DNA of 64,000 nt from Firmicutes bacterium TM09-10 (GTDB lineage Bacteria > Bacillota > Clostridia > Lachnospirales > Lachnospiraceae): the NCBI GenBank assembly GCA_003481005.1, contig QUKC01000013.1:44558-108557 (forward strand). The letters are read 5' to 3'. How positions within the stretch are numbered: the stretch's first letter is position 1; each line of letters starts with the position of its first letter. The notes below the pieces were generated by a model that saw only the letters and a list, made by a program, of their open reading frames with translations, searched no databases and was not told the DNA's origin. The position numbers were made by a program, and so were the translations under genes. This document shows positions 55,554 through 64,000 of the stretch, one piece after another.

Positions 55554-56897
55554 ATGAAAAGAAAAGCATTAGCAACAATGATGGCAGCAGCTATGGTATT
55601 ATCCATGGTTGGCTGCGGCGGAGCCAAAACAGATTCTACAGCATCTACAACCACAACAGAAAAAACAGAAGCAGCGGCAACAGAAGCAGCGGCAACAGAA
55701 GCTGCAGATTCTGCTGCATCAGCAGATGCAACTGTAGAAAATAAAGACAAGCCTCTGTGCTGGTTTAACCGTCAGCCCTCCAGCAGTGCTACCGGCGAGC
55801 TGGACAAAGAAGCTCTGAACTTCAACGGCAATACTTACTATGTAGGTTTTGATGCTAATCAGGGCGCTGAACTGCAGGGACAGATGGTTCTGGATTACAT
55901 CAAAAAGAACGCAGAAACCATTGACAGAAATGGTGATGGCGTGATCGGATATGTTCTGGCAATCGGTGATATCGGACATAACGATTCTATCGCTCGTACC
56001 CGTGGTGTTCGTTCTACACTGGGAACCGGCGTAGAAGCAGACGGCGCAGTAGATTCCACACCGGCTGGAACAAACGTAGATGGAAAAGCAAAGGTTGTAC
56101 AGGATGCAACTCTGGAAGTAGATGGAAAAACATATACGATCCGTGAGCTGGCTTCTCAGGAAATGAAGAACTCAGCAGGTGCAACATGGGATGCTGCAAC
56201 AGCTGGTAATGCCATCGGAATCTGGACAGCTTCCTTCGGCGATCAGATTGATGTTGTTGTTTCCAATAACGATGGTATGGGAATGTCCATGTTCAACGCA
56301 TGGGCAAAAGACAACAAGGTTCCTACCTTCGGTTACGATGCAAACAGCGATGCTGTAGCAGCGATCGCTGAAGGCTACGGCGGAACAATTTCTCAGCATG
56401 CAGACGTACAGGCTTACCTGACACTGAGAGTTCTGCGTAACGCACTGGACGGCGTAGATATTGATACCGGTATCGGTACAGCAGATGATGCCGGAAACTG
56501 CCTGGTAGAAGGGGAAGACTACAGATACAGCGAAGAAGACAGATCCTACTACGCATTAAATATTGCTGTAACAGCTGAGAACTACAGCGATTTCACAGAT
56601 TCCACAAGAGTTTATGACAAGGTTGCCAACCAGCTGGATGAAAGCAAGAGCCCGTCTAAAAAAGTATGGCTGAACATCTACAACGCATCGGATAACTTCC
56701 TGAGCTCTACCTATCAGCCGCTGCTGGAGAAGTATGATGATCTGCTGAACCTGAAAGTAGATTACATCGGTGGAGATGGACAGACAGAATCCAATATCAC
56801 AAACCGTCTTGGAAACCCGAGCGAGTATGATGCTTTCGCAATTAACATGGTTAAGACCGATAATGCAGCAGCATACACATCTCTTCTTTCCAAATAA
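55554..56897 (+). CDS. mglB: Galactose-type ABC binding lipoprotein, circularly permuted MglB
   Basis: 447 residues. Lipoprotein signal with lipobox around C21, then a Ser/Thr/Ala/Glu linker to ~62. From K64 the order of MglB segments is changed. Residues 66-360 match E. coli MglB from its VVFFNKEPS segment to its C-terminus: N72 in CWFNRQPS, the calcium-type loop DRNGDGVIG at 124-132, H142, D144 and R148 in GHNDSIART, W212, NND at 238-240, and D262. Residues 370-447 (VWLNIYNASDNFLSSTY.., ..YDAFAINMV) match the N-terminus of E. coli MglB, including D380 and F382 of the sugar site. So all sugar contacts are kept but the chain ends have moved. It precedes mglA and mglC. Confidence 0.9.
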   Translation: MKRKALATMMAAAMVLSMVGCGGAKTDSTASTTTTEKTEAAATEAAATEAADSAASADATVENKDKPLCWFNRQPSSSATGELDKEALNFNGNTYYVGFDANQGAELQGQMVLDYIKKNAETIDRNGDGVIGYVLAIGDIGHNDSIARTRGVRSTLGTGVEADGAVDSTPAGTNVDGKAKVVQDATLEVDGKTYTIRELASQEMKNSAGATWDAATAGNAIGIWTASFGDQIDVVVSNNDGMGMSMFNAWAKDNKVPTFGYDANSDAVAAIAEGYGGTISQHADVQAYLTLRVLRNALDGVDIDTGIGTADDAGNCLVEGEDYRYSEEDRSYYALNIAVTAENYSDFTDSTRVYDKVANQLDESKSPSKKVWLNIYNASDNFLSSTYQPLLEKYDDLLNLKVDYIGGDGQTESNITNRLGNPSEYDAFAINMVKTDNAAAYTSLLSK

Positions 56898-56984: not shown

Positions 56985-58493
56985 ATGACAGAAGATAAGA
57001 ACAAATATATCTTATCGATTAACGGCATGAGCAAATCATTCGGTAGAAATAAGGTTCTGAAGCATATTAGCATGAATGTCAAACCTGGAACCATTATGGG
57101 ACTGATGGGTGAAAACGGCGCCGGGAAATCGACAATGATGAAATGTCTCTTTGGAACCTATCAGAAAGATGAAGGAACCATCGTACTGGATGGAAAAGAA
57201 GTGAACTTTTCCGGACCAAAGGATGCACTGGAAAACGGGGTGGCAATGGTACACCAGGAGTTGAACCAGTGTCTTGAAAGAAGTGTTGTAGATAACATGT
57301 TCCTTGGAAGATACCCAAAGAATTCTCTTGGGGTTGTCGACGAAGGAAGAATGAAAAAAGAAACCTCAGATCTGTTCAGAAAACTGGGAATTACAGTGGA
57401 TCTGACCCAACCAATGAAAAAAATGTCTGTATCTCAGAGGCAGATGTGTGAGATCGCAAAAGCGATTTCCTATCATTCCAAAGTTATCGTACTGGATGAG
57501 CCTACCTCATCTCTGACTGCACCGGAGGTTGAAAAACTCTTTAAGATGATGTGTCAGTTGAAGGCTCAGGGAATTTCTCTGATTTACATTTCACATAAAA
57601 TGGATGAAATATTTGAAATCTGTGATGAAATATCGGTGCTGCGGGACGGAAGCCTGGTTATGACCAAGGCGAGCACAGAAACAAATATGAATGAACTGAT
57701 CGCCGCCATGGTTGGTCGTTCTCTGGATAACAGATTTCCACCTGTAGACAATACACCGGGAGAAACCATTCTCTCCGTACAAAATATATCAACAAAATAT
57801 GCACCAAAACTGCAGAACATTTCTTTTGATATCAGAAAAGGAGAAATCTTTGGATTTTATGGTCTGGTTGGTGCCGGTCGTACCGAGCTTCTGGAGACGA
57901 TCTTCGGAATTCGTACAAGAGCAGAAGGAACGATCGTGTATGACGGAAAACTGATGAACTTCTCCTCTCCGAAGGATGCTATGGAGCATGGATTTGCACT
58001 GATCACAGAGGAAAGAAAAGCCAATGGTCTGTTCTTAAAGGGTGATATCACATTCAATACTACCATTGCAAATATGAATCGTTATAAAAGCGGGATCGCA
58101 TTATCCAATGATAAGATGGTACGTGCAACAGCCGATGAGATCAAGGTCATGCATACAAAATGTATGGGACCGGATGATATGATCTCCAACCTTTCCGGCG
58201 GTAACCAGCAGAAGGCCATCTTCGGTAAGTGGCTGGAGCGTTCTCCAAGCGTATTCATGATGGATGATCCGACACGAGGAATCGACGTTGGAGCAAAATA
58301 TGAAATCTATGAACTGATCATCAATATGGCAAAACAGGGAAAAACGATCATCGTTGTTTCCTCCGAGATGCCAGAAATTCTTGGTATTACCAACCGGATC
58401 GGTGTTATGTCCAACGGACGCCTGGCTGGAATTGTAAATACAAAAGAAACAAACCAGGAAGAATTACTGAGACTCAGTGCGAAATATCTGTAA
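56985..58493 (+). CDS. mglA: Galactose/methylgalactoside ABC transporter ATPase
   Basis: 502 residues with two tandem ATPase domains, as in sugar-type importers. First domain: Walker A GENGAGKST at 42-50, signature-like MSVSQRQMCEIAKA, Walker B VIVLDEPTSS. Second: AGRTELLETIFG (degenerate Walker A), NLSGGNQQKAIFGKWL, and MDDPTRGID. It powers sugar uptake with MglB and MglC. Confidence 0.95.
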   Translation: MTEDKNKYILSINGMSKSFGRNKVLKHISMNVKPGTIMGLMGENGAGKSTMMKCLFGTYQKDEGTIVLDGKEVNFSGPKDALENGVAMVHQELNQCLERSVVDNMFLGRYPKNSLGVVDEGRMKKETSDLFRKLGITVDLTQPMKKMSVSQRQMCEIAKAISYHSKVIVLDEPTSSLTAPEVEKLFKMMCQLKAQGISLIYISHKMDEIFEICDEISVLRDGSLVMTKASTETNMNELIAAMVGRSLDNRFPPVDNTPGETILSVQNISTKYAPKLQNISFDIRKGEIFGFYGLVGAGRTELLETIFGIRTRAEGTIVYDGKLMNFSSPKDAMEHGFALITEERKANGLFLKGDITFNTTIANMNRYKSGIALSNDKMVRATADEIKVMHTKCMGPDDMISNLSGGNQQKAIFGKWLERSPSVFMMDDPTRGIDVGAKYEIYELIINMAKQGKTIIVVSSEMPEILGITNRIGVMSNGRLAGIVNTKETNQEELLRLSAKYL

Positions 58494-58509: not shown

Positions 58510-60162
58510 ATGGCAGAAAACAGCGTTATTATTTCGGCTGAAGAAGAAGCAAAGCTTTTGAAGCCCATCGATGAATATGTGGAAAAGATCCAGAAAAAAA
58601 TTGACGCATTACGCGTAGACGGATCGGACAAGGTGAATGATCTGAAAAACCAGATCGCTATTGCAAAGGAAAATAAGAACTTATCCAAAGCACAGAGAGA
58701 TAAGATCATTGAAAACAGCAAAAAAGAGCTGGAAAATGCGAAAAAGGTAGAAGCAGACAACAAGGAAGAAATTAAAAAGCTGATCGCAGAGGCAGAGGAT
58801 TATCTGGCGAAGCATTACAAGAAGGATTACTACGATGTAGTAAACAATAGCTGTAAGGCTGCAAAGGCAGAAGAAAACAGCAGATATGAGAAGGTCAAAG
58901 CAGATTTAAAGAGCGAGCATCAGAAAAAGATCGCTTCTCTGAAGGATGCAGAGGAGATCAAGGCTGAAAAATATGTGTTGAAAAACAAATTGTTTGATGC
59001 ACAGATGACTCACGAATCCAGAATGCAGGAGATCAAAGACAGAAGACATGAAGCATTTATGCATAAATATCATCTGATCGATCTGCTGAGAACCTCCAAG
59101 TTCACATTCCCTCAGCAGAGAGCACAGAAACTGGAAAATTACAGATACTCCTTCAATTTATCCCAGTTTTTGTACAAAAACGGTCTGTACATCGTAATCA
59201 TCCTGATTTTTATTGCATTGTGTATCATCACACCAATCGTTAAAAATACACAACTGCTGACCGTTACCAATATCCTGAATATCTTACAGCAGGCATCCCC
59301 GCGTATGTTCCTTGCACTTGGTGTTGCCGGCCTGATCCTGTTGACAGGTACGGACCTTTCGGTAGGACGTATGGTTGGTCTGGGTATGGTTACAGCAACC
59401 ATTATCATGCATAATGGAATCAATACAGGTGCCGTATTCGGGCATGTATTTGACTTCTCTGCTATGGCTCCTACTGCGAAAGCATTGCTTGCATTGTTAA
59501 TGTGTGTGATCTTTACAACGGTATTTTCCATGATTGCCGGCTTCTTCATGGCAAGATTCAAAATGCATCCGTTTATTTCTACAATGGCGAATATGCTGAT
59601 CATTTTTGGTCTGGTAACCTATGCTACCAAGGGTGTATCCTTCGGTGCCATCGATTTTGCGATCCCTAACACCTTCATTCCGCAGATCGGCAAATTCCCG
59701 ACGATCATCCTGTGGGCAGTTGCAGCAGTTATCATTGTATGGTTTATCTGGAATAAAACAACATTTGGTAAAAACCTGTATGCGGTAGGCGGAAATCCGG
59801 AAGCAGCAGCAGTATCTGGTATTTCTGTATTCAAAGTAACGATGGGAGCATTTATCCTGGCAGGTATCCTGTATGGCTTCGGCTCCTGGCTGGAATGTAA
59901 CCGTATGGTTGGTTCCGGCAGTGCAGCTTATGGACAGGGATGGGATATGGATGCCATCGCAGCCTGCGTAGTTGGCGGTGTTTCCTTTACCGGTGGTATC
60001 GGTAAGATTTCCGGAGTTGTAACGGGTGTATTGATCTTTACCTCTCTGACCTACTCTCTGACGATTCTGGGTATTGATACAAACCTTCAGTTCATCTTTG
60101 AAGGTATCATTATCCTGGCAGCCGTAACCCTTGACTGTCTGAAATATGTACAGAAAAAATAA
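58510..60162 (+). CDS. mglC: Galactose ABC transporter permease with long N-terminal coiled coil
   Basis: 550 residues from the ATG at 58510 (AGGAGG upstream), against ~336 in E. coli. The first ~215 residues are hydrophilic and strongly charged, with repeated Lys/Glu/Ala helices (KKELENAKKVEADNKEEIKKL, KVKADLKSEHQKKIASLKDAEEI) that predict a coiled coil. Normal MglC follows from FLYKNGLYIVIILIFIALC: LALGVAGLILLTGTDLSVGRMVGL and the coupling motif AVGGNPEAAAVSGI. The extension would face the cytoplasm, beside MglA. Confidence 0.93.
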   Translation: MAENSVIISAEEEAKLLKPIDEYVEKIQKKIDALRVDGSDKVNDLKNQIAIAKENKNLSKAQRDKIIENSKKELENAKKVEADNKEEIKKLIAEAEDYLAKHYKKDYYDVVNNSCKAAKAEENSRYEKVKADLKSEHQKKIASLKDAEEIKAEKYVLKNKLFDAQMTHESRMQEIKDRRHEAFMHKYHLIDLLRTSKFTFPQQRAQKLENYRYSFNLSQFLYKNGLYIVIILIFIALCIITPIVKNTQLLTVTNILNILQQASPRMFLALGVAGLILLTGTDLSVGRMVGLGMVTATIIMHNGINTGAVFGHVFDFSAMAPTAKALLALLMCVIFTTVFSMIAGFFMARFKMHPFISTMANMLIIFGLVTYATKGVSFGAIDFAIPNTFIPQIGKFPTIILWAVAAVIIVWFIWNKTTFGKNLYAVGGNPEAAAVSGISVFKVTMGAFILAGILYGFGSWLECNRMVGSGSAAYGQGWDMDAIAACVVGGVSFTGGIGKISGVVTGVLIFTSLTYSLTILGIDTNLQFIFEGIIILAAVTLDCLKYVQKK

Positions 60163-60433: not shown

Positions 60434-62047
60434 ATGGAACAATATAAAGTGATTCTTGTCGATGATGAGGTGGAGGTCATCGATATCATGAAACAGAAGA
60501 TCCGCTGGAATGATCTGGGTTTTGATGTGGTAGGCAGTGCTACCAATGGCGTGAAGGCTCTGGAGCTGGTGGAAAAGCTTCAGCCGGACGTGGTGCTGAC
60601 GGATATTAAGATGCCTTACATGGATGGGCTGGAGCTGGCCAGAAAGCTGAACCAGGACTATCCGAATATTTACATTATGCTTTGTACAGGCTTTGACGAA
60701 TTTGAATATGCAAAAGAAGCGGTTCATCTGGAAATCAAAGAATATATGCTGAAACCAATCAGCGCCACGGAGCTGTCAGACAGTCTGGTGAAGCTGAAAA
60801 ATACCCTGGACAAGGAACGGGAAGAAAAATTAAATGTAAAAAAACTGGAGGATTATTTTCAGGAAGTGCTGCCAAAGCTACAGTCCAATTTCTTTATTTC
60901 CCTGATCGAGGGAAGAGTTGGCGAAGAGGACTATGAACGATTTCTTCAGAACTATCGGGTGGATATGAAGGGACCTTTGTTTTGCTGCATTATCTTTCAT
61001 ACTTCGGAAAATGATGTGCCGGATGGCATGAATCCCTTATTGTTATCCATGTCCGTGGAACGAGAAGTGAAACAGCGGCTGACAGAGAACTGTAATTGTC
61101 AGGAATTTATCTATATGGGCAACACAATTTTGATCATGGAGCTTCATTCAGAAGAGGAGATGGCCCAATTGACGGATAGCTGTGACCGATTCTGTCGCTG
61201 GGCATGGAGAATTATGGGGGCGGCGGTTACTGCAGGAATCGGAACCGTATGCAATAGTCTGCATGATATCAGCATCTCTTACGAGGGAGCCAGAGAGGCA
61301 GTGTCCTACCGTGTCTTATATGGAACCAAACGAGCGATCAATATTGCAGAGATAGTTCCGAAAGAGTCCAAAAAGACGGTTCCCCTGGAGGAAACAAGAA
61401 TGCAGGATCTGTTCCGTGCCATTCACGTGGGAGATCAGGAGGAGATCCGGAAAGAAGCGATCAAGGAGATAGAAAAACTCCATAAGAATGCAGATACCAT
61501 CAGTCAGTATAATCTGGCTACCATGGAGATTGTCAGCGGATTTTTCAAGTTTTGTGCCAATAATTCTATGGATTTTAATGATATCTCCGGAAATGTACAA
61601 AACCTTTACGAAAGAGTCACCCAGTTAGACGAAACCTCCATGACAAACTGGATCATCAATATGTCTACAGCCATCAGCGAAAAACTGAAAAGTACCAGAA
61701 ACAGTACCTCCAGACGTATGATCACTGACGCGCAGAATATTGTAAAGCAAAGATATATGGAGCCTGACATTTCACTGGATGAGGTGTGTGCAGATCTTGG
61801 GGTATCCAATTCCTACTTTTCTTCTATTTTTAAGAAGGAAACAGGGCAGCCCTTTGTCACTTATCTTACGGATTACCGAATGGACAGAGCAGAAGAGCTG
61901 GTACTCAACACCGATGAAAAAAGCTATAAGATAGCAGAAAAAGTAGGATATCAGGATGCAAATTACTTCAGTTATGTGTTTAAAAAGAAATTCGGCGTTT
62001 CCCCATCCAAATACAGAGCCTCCGGGAAAAAAGAAAACGAAAAGTAG
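60434..62047 (+). CDS. YesN-type response regulator with AraC-family DNA-binding domain
   Basis: 537 residues from the ATG at 60434 (GAAGGGG site upstream). Receiver domain 1-125 with phospho-acceptor D57 in VVLTDIKMPYMDG and the switch Lys in YMLKPIS. A long middle region (to ~430) as in YesN proteins, then two AraC-type helix-turn-helix motifs: ISLDEVCADLGVSNSYFSSIFKKETG and KIAEKVGYQDANYFSYVFKKKFG. Placed just after mglBAC; it most likely activates them when sugar is sensed. Confidence 0.92.
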   Translation: MEQYKVILVDDEVEVIDIMKQKIRWNDLGFDVVGSATNGVKALELVEKLQPDVVLTDIKMPYMDGLELARKLNQDYPNIYIMLCTGFDEFEYAKEAVHLEIKEYMLKPISATELSDSLVKLKNTLDKEREEKLNVKKLEDYFQEVLPKLQSNFFISLIEGRVGEEDYERFLQNYRVDMKGPLFCCIIFHTSENDVPDGMNPLLLSMSVEREVKQRLTENCNCQEFIYMGNTILIMELHSEEEMAQLTDSCDRFCRWAWRIMGAAVTAGIGTVCNSLHDISISYEGAREAVSYRVLYGTKRAINIAEIVPKESKKTVPLEETRMQDLFRAIHVGDQEEIRKEAIKEIEKLHKNADTISQYNLATMEIVSGFFKFCANNSMDFNDISGNVQNLYERVTQLDETSMTNWIINMSTAISEKLKSTRNSTSRRMITDAQNIVKQRYMEPDISLDEVCADLGVSNSYFSSIFKKETGQPFVTYLTDYRMDRAEELVLNTDEKSYKIAEKVGYQDANYFSYVFKKKFGVSPSKYRASGKKENEK

Positions 62048-63866
62048 AAAAAGTACCGTATTTAACATACAGACGATCATTTTGTCTGTCCTTATGGCAA
62101 TCTCATTGGTCACGATCATTGTCATGGGACTGTTGCTGTACCATCGCTTCAAGCTGGCATTGGAAAAAACAGCAGTGGACAACGCGGAAGCAACCGTGGA
62201 GGGAACTGTAGACCGGTTAAATGCAGATCTGCTGGATATTCGCCAGATCTTTAATGGAGCAAACTATAACGTGGTTCAGCAGTTTGATATATCCAGCCGG
62301 GAATTTGTGGAGCAATTCAGTCTTCTTTATGAGACCAACTCCGATAAGGTTCAGAGTGTGGCATTGTATGACCATGAAGGAAAACTGATCGCATCTGAGC
62401 CGGTGGCGTTAGAAAAGAAAAATGTGCAGGTGCAGACTCAGGAGTGGTATGAAAATGCAGAAAATGCAATTGAAAATGTACATTTTTCCACACCCCATAT
62501 CCAGGAATTGTTTGAAGACGGAGCCTATCGGTACCAGTGGGTGGTTTCTCTGAGCAGCTATGTGGATGTCAATAAAGGAGAAATACCGGAAACCGGCGTT
62601 CTTTTACTGGATATGAAATATTCTGTGATCCGGGATGTCATGAAACAGATCAACGATTCTTCCGATGGGATCTATTATTATCTGAGCAGCCAGGGCGGAG
62701 AGATGATCTATCATCCCCGGGGAACGGAATTAAACCGCGGATTATTTAAAGAAAACAGTCTGGAAGCTACAAAATATGAGGATGGAACCTACGAGATCCG
62801 TGCCGATGGTCAGAACGAGACCGTGATCGTCAGAAGCGTAGCTTATACCGGCTGGAAGATGATCGGTGTTGTGCCTGAGAGCGTGCAGGAGTCAAACTTT
62901 AAAAATTTCCGTTACTATGTATTTGCCACTATTTTAGTCCTGTTGGTCATGCTTTTGGAGGGAAACCAGCTGGTATCCCGGAAGATATCCAAACCGATCC
63001 GGGAGCTGGACGCTTCTGTTAAGACCTATGAAGCAGGAGGAAAGCCGGATATTTATATTGGAGGCTCCTCTGAGATCCGTCATCTGGGACATTCGGTACA
63101 GAAGTCTTATGAGCAGATCGAAGAACTGATGGATGAGATCATCCGACAGCAAAATGAACGGAGAAAAAGTGAACTGGATGCCCTGCAAAGCCAGATCAAT
63201 CCTCATTTTCTGTATAACACACTGGAATCCATCACCTGGATGGTGGAAGCCCAGGAAAATGAAGGAGCAGTCCGTATGATCTCTGAACTGGCAAAACTGC
63301 TTCGTGTCAGCCTGTCCAGGGGAAAGACCATTATCTCTATCAAAGACGAGCTGCAGCACAGCAGAAGTTACATGAATATCCAGCTGGCACGGTACAAAGA
63401 ACGATTTAAAACAGAATTCCGGATCGAGAAAGAGATCGAAAACTACTGCATCGTAAAGCTGGTGATCCAGCCCATTCTGGAAAATGCCATTTATTATGGT
63501 GTTGGAAATATGGATGAGGATGAGGACGGCAGGATTATCGTCAGTGGAGAAAAGAAAGAGGAGGACATCCTGATCACCATTGAAGACAACGGTATGGGTA
63601 TGCCGGAAGAGGTTCTGGAAAAAATCCTGACGGACAACAGCAAAGTTCCGAAGCACGGCTCCGGCGTTGGGGTGATCAATGTGCATTCCAGAATCCGGCT
63701 GATGTTTGGAGAAAAATATGGTCTGTCTATAGAAAGTGAACCGGATGAAGGAACAAGGGTCACGATCCGTATTCCTGCAATTCCATATACACCGGAAAAT
63801 GCAGAAAGACTGGAATCACAAAAATATATCCAGAGGAGATCGGCAGATGAAAAAGAATCGGGTTAA
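61956..63866 (+). CDS. YesM-type sensor histidine kinase
   Basis: Up to 636 residues. Start is uncertain: the ATG at 61956 (GGATATCAGG before it) or 61974; both lie inside the regulator gene, giving an out-of-frame overlap of 74-92 bases. First membrane helix IILSVLMAISLVTIIVMGLLLY, an extracellular sensor region of ~270 residues, second helix VFATILVLLVMLL, HAMP-like segment, histidine box LQSQINPHFLYNTLESI, and an ATPase domain with PILENAIYYG and IEDNGMGM..GSGVGVINVHSRI. Partner of the regulator before it. Confidence 0.88.
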   Translation: MQITSVMCLKRNSAFPHPNTEPPGKKKTKSRKSTVFNIQTIILSVLMAISLVTIIVMGLLLYHRFKLALEKTAVDNAEATVEGTVDRLNADLLDIRQIFNGANYNVVQQFDISSREFVEQFSLLYETNSDKVQSVALYDHEGKLIASEPVALEKKNVQVQTQEWYENAENAIENVHFSTPHIQELFEDGAYRYQWVVSLSSYVDVNKGEIPETGVLLLDMKYSVIRDVMKQINDSSDGIYYYLSSQGGEMIYHPRGTELNRGLFKENSLEATKYEDGTYEIRADGQNETVIVRSVAYTGWKMIGVVPESVQESNFKNFRYYVFATILVLLVMLLEGNQLVSRKISKPIRELDASVKTYEAGGKPDIYIGGSSEIRHLGHSVQKSYEQIEELMDEIIRQQNERRKSELDALQSQINPHFLYNTLESITWMVEAQENEGAVRMISELAKLLRVSLSRGKTIISIKDELQHSRSYMNIQLARYKERFKTEFRIEKEIENYCIVKLVIQPILENAIYYGVGNMDEDEDGRIIVSGEKKEEDILITIEDNGMGMPEEVLEKILTDNSKVPKHGSGVGVINVHSRIRLMFGEKYGLSIESEPDEGTRVTIRIPAIPYTPENAERLESQKYIQRRSADEKESG

Positions 63867-64000
63867 ATTTCTTATAATTGAGCTTTTTTTGCTGATGCTG
63901 GCGGTCTTCTTTGTATGGAAGATTTTTGATCAGAACGTTGCAGAGACCCGGATTGCCGTAATCCTTCCAGAGTCCGGTGATAAGCGCTGGAATGCCCTGA
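63847..64000 (+). CDS. Membrane-anchored sugar-binding protein, N-terminal fragment (cut by window end)
   Basis: ATG at 63847 with AGAGGAG upstream, overlapping the kinase stop by 20 bases. The visible 51 residues are a signal anchor (KFLIIELFLLMLAVFFVWKIF) followed by TRIAVILPESGDKRWNAL, the first strand of a periplasmic-binding-protein fold (family 1, sugar type). No lipobox Cys is seen. It probably acts as a sugar co-sensor for the YesM-like kinase. Confidence 0.7.
   Translation, partial: MKKNRVKFLIIELFLLMLAVFFVWKIFDQNVAETRIAVILPESGDKRWNAL

Follow-up and report, generated by a model that had tools for sequence, protein, structure and literature searches.

The first gene of a sugar-uptake operon in Firmicutes bacterium TM09-10 encodes a circularly permuted MglB, in which the N-terminal strand-helix-strand of an ordinary MglB has become the C-terminal end (the last ~80 residues, here called the moved segment). 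The gene lies in a 64,000-nucleotide stretch of contig QUKC01000013.1 (44,558-108,557), which is the window analysed here. The permutation had been proposed in an earlier note on this DNA, and it is supported by the sequence, by profile comparison and by the predicted structure. With a probability of roughly 0.93, we regard the product as a lipid-anchored binding protein of an MglBAC-type importer, of the same kind as TpMglB-2 (Type Ic / Cluster Bc), with an order that most likely arose by tandem fusion. The topology itself is not new, because the structure of TpMglB-2 already shows it and Gram-positive gut members have been described. The 2016 description covers the permuted topology of the Treponema pallidum protein with its glucose binding and closure, gives the subclass the name Type Ic / Cluster Bc, and notes that one clade belongs to Gram-positive gut bacteria and that permease homologues are similarly distributed (PMC4990184). 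The window protein adds a member to this published kind, and a claim of novelty for the permuted order could not be upheld.

The order of the parts can be seen from the domain matches. PF18610 was found at residues 369-438 and PF13407 at residues 89-300, with the PF13407 profile entered only at position 91, and ordinary MglBs align to the window protein over about residues 65-350 only in the VIA comparison (a family's failure to appear in the VIA list was not taken as absence). Relative to E. coli MglB, the break point falls between residues ~81 and ~85. The earlier note had equated residues 370-447 with the E. coli N-terminal strand-helix-strand, and residue 66 onward with the segment that follows it; both assignments agree with our alignments and residue map. 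A six-frame scan of the window for a second copy of the moved segment, such as a separate, intact N-terminal MglB segment, found none (next best match E 4.8). In front of the fold, C21 is nearly invariant in alignment A1 and was read by eye from the translation as a lipobox-like site, and the AlphaFold2 (AF2) predicted local distance difference test score (pLDDT) is below 50 for residues 1-58.

In a rotation test, residues 62-447 were rotated so that the C-terminal piece was placed first, and the result was scored by its best single-domain match to a profile of canonical MglBs. With a profile of 21 sequences, rotation raised the score from 118.5 to 141.9 bits, with best first residues at ~338-346, and 200 versions with residues 362-447 shuffled reached at most 125.4 bits. 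The transporter-type subset profile gave 111.2 bits for the native order, 129.7 for the rotated order and 119.1 as the shuffled maximum, and the gain was weaker with the sensor-type subset profile (60.7, 70.0 and 67.8 bits, respectively). The NCBIfam MglB model rose from 87.2 bits in native order to 101.3 when rotated, as a single stretch over profile positions 25-189.

Profile-profile comparison by hhalign matched the moved segment with the N-termini of canonical MglBs at E 3.8e-4 (81 rows from the loci of the present study), at E 1.4e-4 after adding 120 Treponema-set proteins, against the unchanged canonical set, and at E 3.7e-7 (probability 92.9) when these were compared with a larger canonical set; all are pairwise values, against MglB-type profiles only. 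The best match spans 76 columns in the expected register, aligning D14, F16 and the AINLV strand, and the controls gave E 0.0035 (best of 200 column-shuffled) and E 0.69 (reversed segment). As E 3.7e-7 stands against a shuffled best of 0.0035, the moved segment is, judged by its sequence, homologous to canonical MglB N-termini and has more than a likeness in shape.

The residues that contact sugar have been kept through the change of order. Within the moved segment, D380 and F382 correspond to D14 and F16 of E. coli MglB, and elsewhere N72, H142, D144, R148, W212, N239 and D262 correspond to N91, H152, D154, R158, W183, N211 and D236. Nine of the ten E. coli contacts are therefore identical, all aligning as the earlier note had listed them, and the tenth, N256, is Q281, a glutamine shared by 81/81 and 120/120 rows. 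An aspartate is found at the D14 position in 119 of the 120 Treponema-set rows, the asparagine of T. pallidum (TpMglB-2 N311) being exceptional. The calcium-type loop had also been described as present, which holds for D124, N126, D128 and D233 (in place of E205) and fails for Q140 and Q142, now V130 and G132. From the sequence alone, the glutamine at N256, the glycine at Q142 and the aspartate at E205 are features of Type Ic / Cluster Bc, as is the C-terminal location of the first three N-lobe strands of MglB.

The tree comprises 53 rows, 14 of them permuted (T. pallidum included), and these 14 form one branch with 100/100 support. The permuted order most likely arose once and would have been inherited with the operon in the Lachnospiraceae-type loci examined. 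In the duplication route, two tandem MglB copies would fuse, and the front of the first copy and the back of the second would then be lost. Multiple canonical stretches were present in 15 of 121 proteins examined (the L120 protein and 120 listed), and 10 of those 15 (P0123-P0132) carry two near-complete MglB copies. In the L120 protein (L120:4155-5816, + strand; 553 amino acids), the MglB sequence continues in frame into a repeat of its own N-terminal half and of its last ~35 residues. For P0128, P0129 and P0131, three of the six two-copy proteins in the tree, both copies pair with each other; for P0124 and P0125, the two first copies group together, as do the two second copies, and the tree leaves P0123 unresolved. 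The first step of the duplication route can be seen in these MglB genes, perhaps more than once, although gene conversion would look alike. Such tandem-fused canonical genes, found in related bacteria, make this route to permutation directly testable. As direct ancestors of the permuted family they are unsupported, being a separate clade on the tree. Another possible source of the segment is recombination with the N-terminal part of a different MglB-like gene.

Taken as a whole, the L120 protein and P0122-P0134 are canonical-order MglBs that run in frame into a further copy of themselves, either complete or with parts deleted. In three MglBs of 484-504 amino acids (P0153, P0154 and P0159), the C-terminal part also matches the N-lobe half weakly, at 13-14 bits, and these may be decayed tandem copies. 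The placement of L101 beside the permuted clade was flagged by the program as a long-branch join and was not used.

Several observations weigh against the interpretation given above. The AF2 model supports the permutation at moderate confidence only (mean pLDDT 72.1; 50.8-72.1 over five models), with values near 55-65 in parts of residues 371-447. The match of the moved segment with the sensor-type canonical set of ten proteins is weak (E 0.054, then 0.023), and these proteins are unsupported as its source (score 20.1, E 0.023). On the tree, a very long stem (2.35 changes per column) leads to the permuted clade and obscures which canonical MglBs are nearest to it, and no intermediate was found inside the permuted family.

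The features of the locus are collected in Table 1. The order of the genes is mglB, mglA, mglC, response regulator and histidine kinase, and the product of the first is most likely the binding protein of an MglBAC-type (CUT2) importer in a host that is most likely a Lachnospiraceae bacterium. For MglC, ATG 58510 is the likely start, instead of the GTG at 58477 in the list of open reading frames (ORFs). Promoter-like sites numbered 15 in a scan (9.8 expected from shuffled sequence) and terminator-like sites 5 (3.8 expected), differences that were not informative.

Table 1. Features of the permuted mglB gene and its neighbours (window positions)
Feature	Position	Strand	Basis
Circularly permuted MglB-type, predicted glucose/galactose-binding lipoprotein, 447 amino acids	55554..56897	+	ORF translation
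Signal peptide, likely lipobox C21, Thr/Ala/Glu-rich linker (residues 1-61)	55554..55736	+	Read from translation
Residues 66-350, corresponding to E. coli MglB ~85 to C-terminus	55749..56603	+	Canonical MglB alignments (VIA), residue map
Linker from old C-terminus to old strand 1 (residues 351-368, limits approximate)	56604..56657	+	Outside canonical MglB alignments (VIA)
Moved segment (residues 369-447), corresponding to E. coli MglB ~4-81, with D380 and F382	56658..56894	+	PF18610, profile-profile match, residue map
MglA-type ATPase, 502 amino acids	56985..58493	+	NF008215 E 6.2e-201, under curated cut-off of NF008215
MglC-type permease, 550 amino acids from ATG 58510	58510..60162	+	NF007014 E 2.4e-84, BPD_transp_2, alignment A2
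N-terminal extension of MglC, ~215 residues, predicted long helices, charged	58510..59160	+	Absent from 4 canonical MglCs in A2
Response regulator with AraC-type helix-turn-helix	60311..62047	+	Domain match
dCache sensor histidine kinase	61956..63866	+	Domain match
Start of Type I binding protein, likely membrane anchor, cut by window end	63847..64000	+	Near-identical L116 start

The same order recurs in related loci. The search pattern matched 464 stretches of a species-genome collection, of which 435 encode relatives, and the nearest 80 loci were kept; their titles are mostly Lachnospiraceae or its genera, with a few others. The match extends to query residue 445-447 in 80/80 of these, and the closely related L023 locus, on a contig of Fusicatenibacter saccharivorans, shares 92% identity in MglB and 95% in MglC. 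In a phylum sample of 299 genomes PF18610 was found in two, one being the centre genome G001 (the L023 genome), and the top MglC match of each lies in an open frame of 556-559 amino acids. In the family sample (200 genomes drawn from the family to which G001 belongs, G001 among them), 21 had PF18610.

After the kinase, the L023 genome encodes two binding proteins, of 316 and 356 amino acids, in which PF13407 is matched from its first position, so both are in canonical order. The end of the window cuts through the first of them (the counterpart of the 316-amino-acid protein). Of the 21 PF18610 genomes, 16 have a canonical MglB-type match no more than 10 kb away from the permuted gene; among the other five, G316 has its matches on other contigs and G302, G370, G418 and G488 are without any at E 1e-18, with the operon of G302 broken between contigs. 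Because of their gene position, these canonical-order relatives are likely to be sensors for the two-component system, for which XylFII-LytS, known here from a PDB title, would be a parallel. In the closest relative (L116:4861-6874, - strand), one of the post-kinase binding proteins has an uncleaved-looking membrane anchor and the other is lipoprotein-like.

The permease of the operon is also unusual. With 550 amino acids, MglC is a net ~214 longer than its E. coli counterpart (336), and its extension is conserved among 23 aligned members. AF2 predicts helices at residues 10-36, 39-54, 60-143 and 147-194, with pLDDT mostly 85-93 (whole-model predicted template modelling score 0.52). The extension has no Pfam match, and its matches in the PDB are weak (best E 0.015, to an ATP synthase b' subunit), which we took as generic coiled coil. 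The extension is rich in charged residues. As the N-terminus of CUT2 permeases is generally taken to be cytoplasmic, the extension is probably intracellular and out of reach of MglB. In the openly licensed literature of PubMed Central, nothing relevant was found on such an extension in the Treponema MglC (tp0686).

The pairing of permuted MglB and long MglC, also pointed out in the earlier note, is strict. Of 75 MglC matches in the family sample (E <=1e-70), 54 have open frames of up to 438 amino acids and 21 have frames of 510-576, and these 21 long MglCs are in exactly the 21 genomes with PF18610. A search with the extension only (E <=1e-5; up to 15 candidates scored per genome) was positive in the same 21 and in none of the others. 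Among the 80 kept loci, 71 have a closed MglC ORF, 70 being of 508-563 amino acids; that of L061 is split in two frames. On the L061 contig, mglA and mglC are each broken over several frames, probably by sequencing errors or in a decaying operon. The pairing marks an importer subclass and raises the question of the role of the cytoplasmic helices. It could be suggested that the two oddities are functionally coupled, with canonical MglB relatives kept only as sensors, and that the helices, for example, control MglA or act as a scaffold of the importer for a binding protein that stays tethered. We find this unlikely. The 21 genomes share ancestry, and the pairing is the co-inheritance of one operon lineage, not a set of independent events.

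The permuted MglB would fold into the usual two lobes, close on its sugar with the usual residues and hand glucose or galactose to MglA/MglC, and the permutation is probably silent for function. It is unlikely that the new order is an adaptation that spares the D14/F16 loop from the strain of the lipid tether or alters docking on MglC. The permuted members are likely lipoproteins, the strain idea was proposed in PMC4990184, and strain is conceivable in T. pallidum, with its spacer of only ~9 residues. However, canonical-order MglBs of the same genomes also carry lipobox-like signals (by eye), so tethering does not demand permutation. The earlier note had suggested that the anchor now joins at a different face and may change docking, which the published N-lobe strand order, 2-1-3-4-5-6 (PMC4990184), does not support. 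The old N-terminus precedes strand 1 and the new one strand 4, two places apart in the sheet of one lobe. Parallel strands are usual for this fold; if they are parallel here, both N-termini would leave from one edge, ~10 Å apart. Docking also need not change in the window protein because ~40 low-complexity residues part the likely lipidated C21 from the fold, an argument limited to this protein given the short T. pallidum spacer (C26 to R36).

The C-terminal segment could instead be a fragment of some other gene that reached the shape of MglB by convergence, an origin left open in 2016, when only 13% identity was found between TpMglB-2 and E. coli and possible acquisition from a different gene was suggested (PMC4990184). 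Pfam, too, keeps the segment as a separate family. Such an origin is now very improbable, as the profile-profile match, among the MglB-type profiles compared, covers contacts and the AINLV strand where the controls fail, and rotation adds about 23 bits; on this sequence evidence true circular permutation is supported over convergence, which answers the doubt left by that report. A frameshift, misassembly or wrong gene call joining unrelated pieces has no point in its favour and is refuted by the conserved segment order in the kept loci and in solved structures.

The closest solved relative is TpMglB-2 (Tp0684; PDB 5jx2, 6bgc, 6bgd), and the window protein aligns colinearly with 5jx2 and 6bgc from residue 62 up to its C-terminus. 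It is ~40% identical to TpMglB-2 and differs in keeping the aspartate at D14, in the 14 extra residues that separate the two within ~161-186, and in its longer spacer; its linker at residues 351-368 occupies the position of the fourth hinge crossing published for TpMglB-2 (PMC4990184). An oddity described in a spirochaete that is difficult to study also belongs to a sugar-uptake operon of gut Lachnospiraceae, where it should be easier to study. With canonical MglB (E. coli GGBP, 2gbp; NF011924), the protein has in common the two-lobe fold, as predicted, the nine contacts and part of the calcium loop, but it differs in segment order and, in native order, scores well below the NF011924 cut-off of 420 for an equivalog. 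Likewise, MglC shares its core with canonical MglC (NF007014; 41% identity to the E. coli protein by BLAST) and differs by the ~215 extra N-terminal residues, scoring 283.5 bits against an equivalog cut-off of 386.
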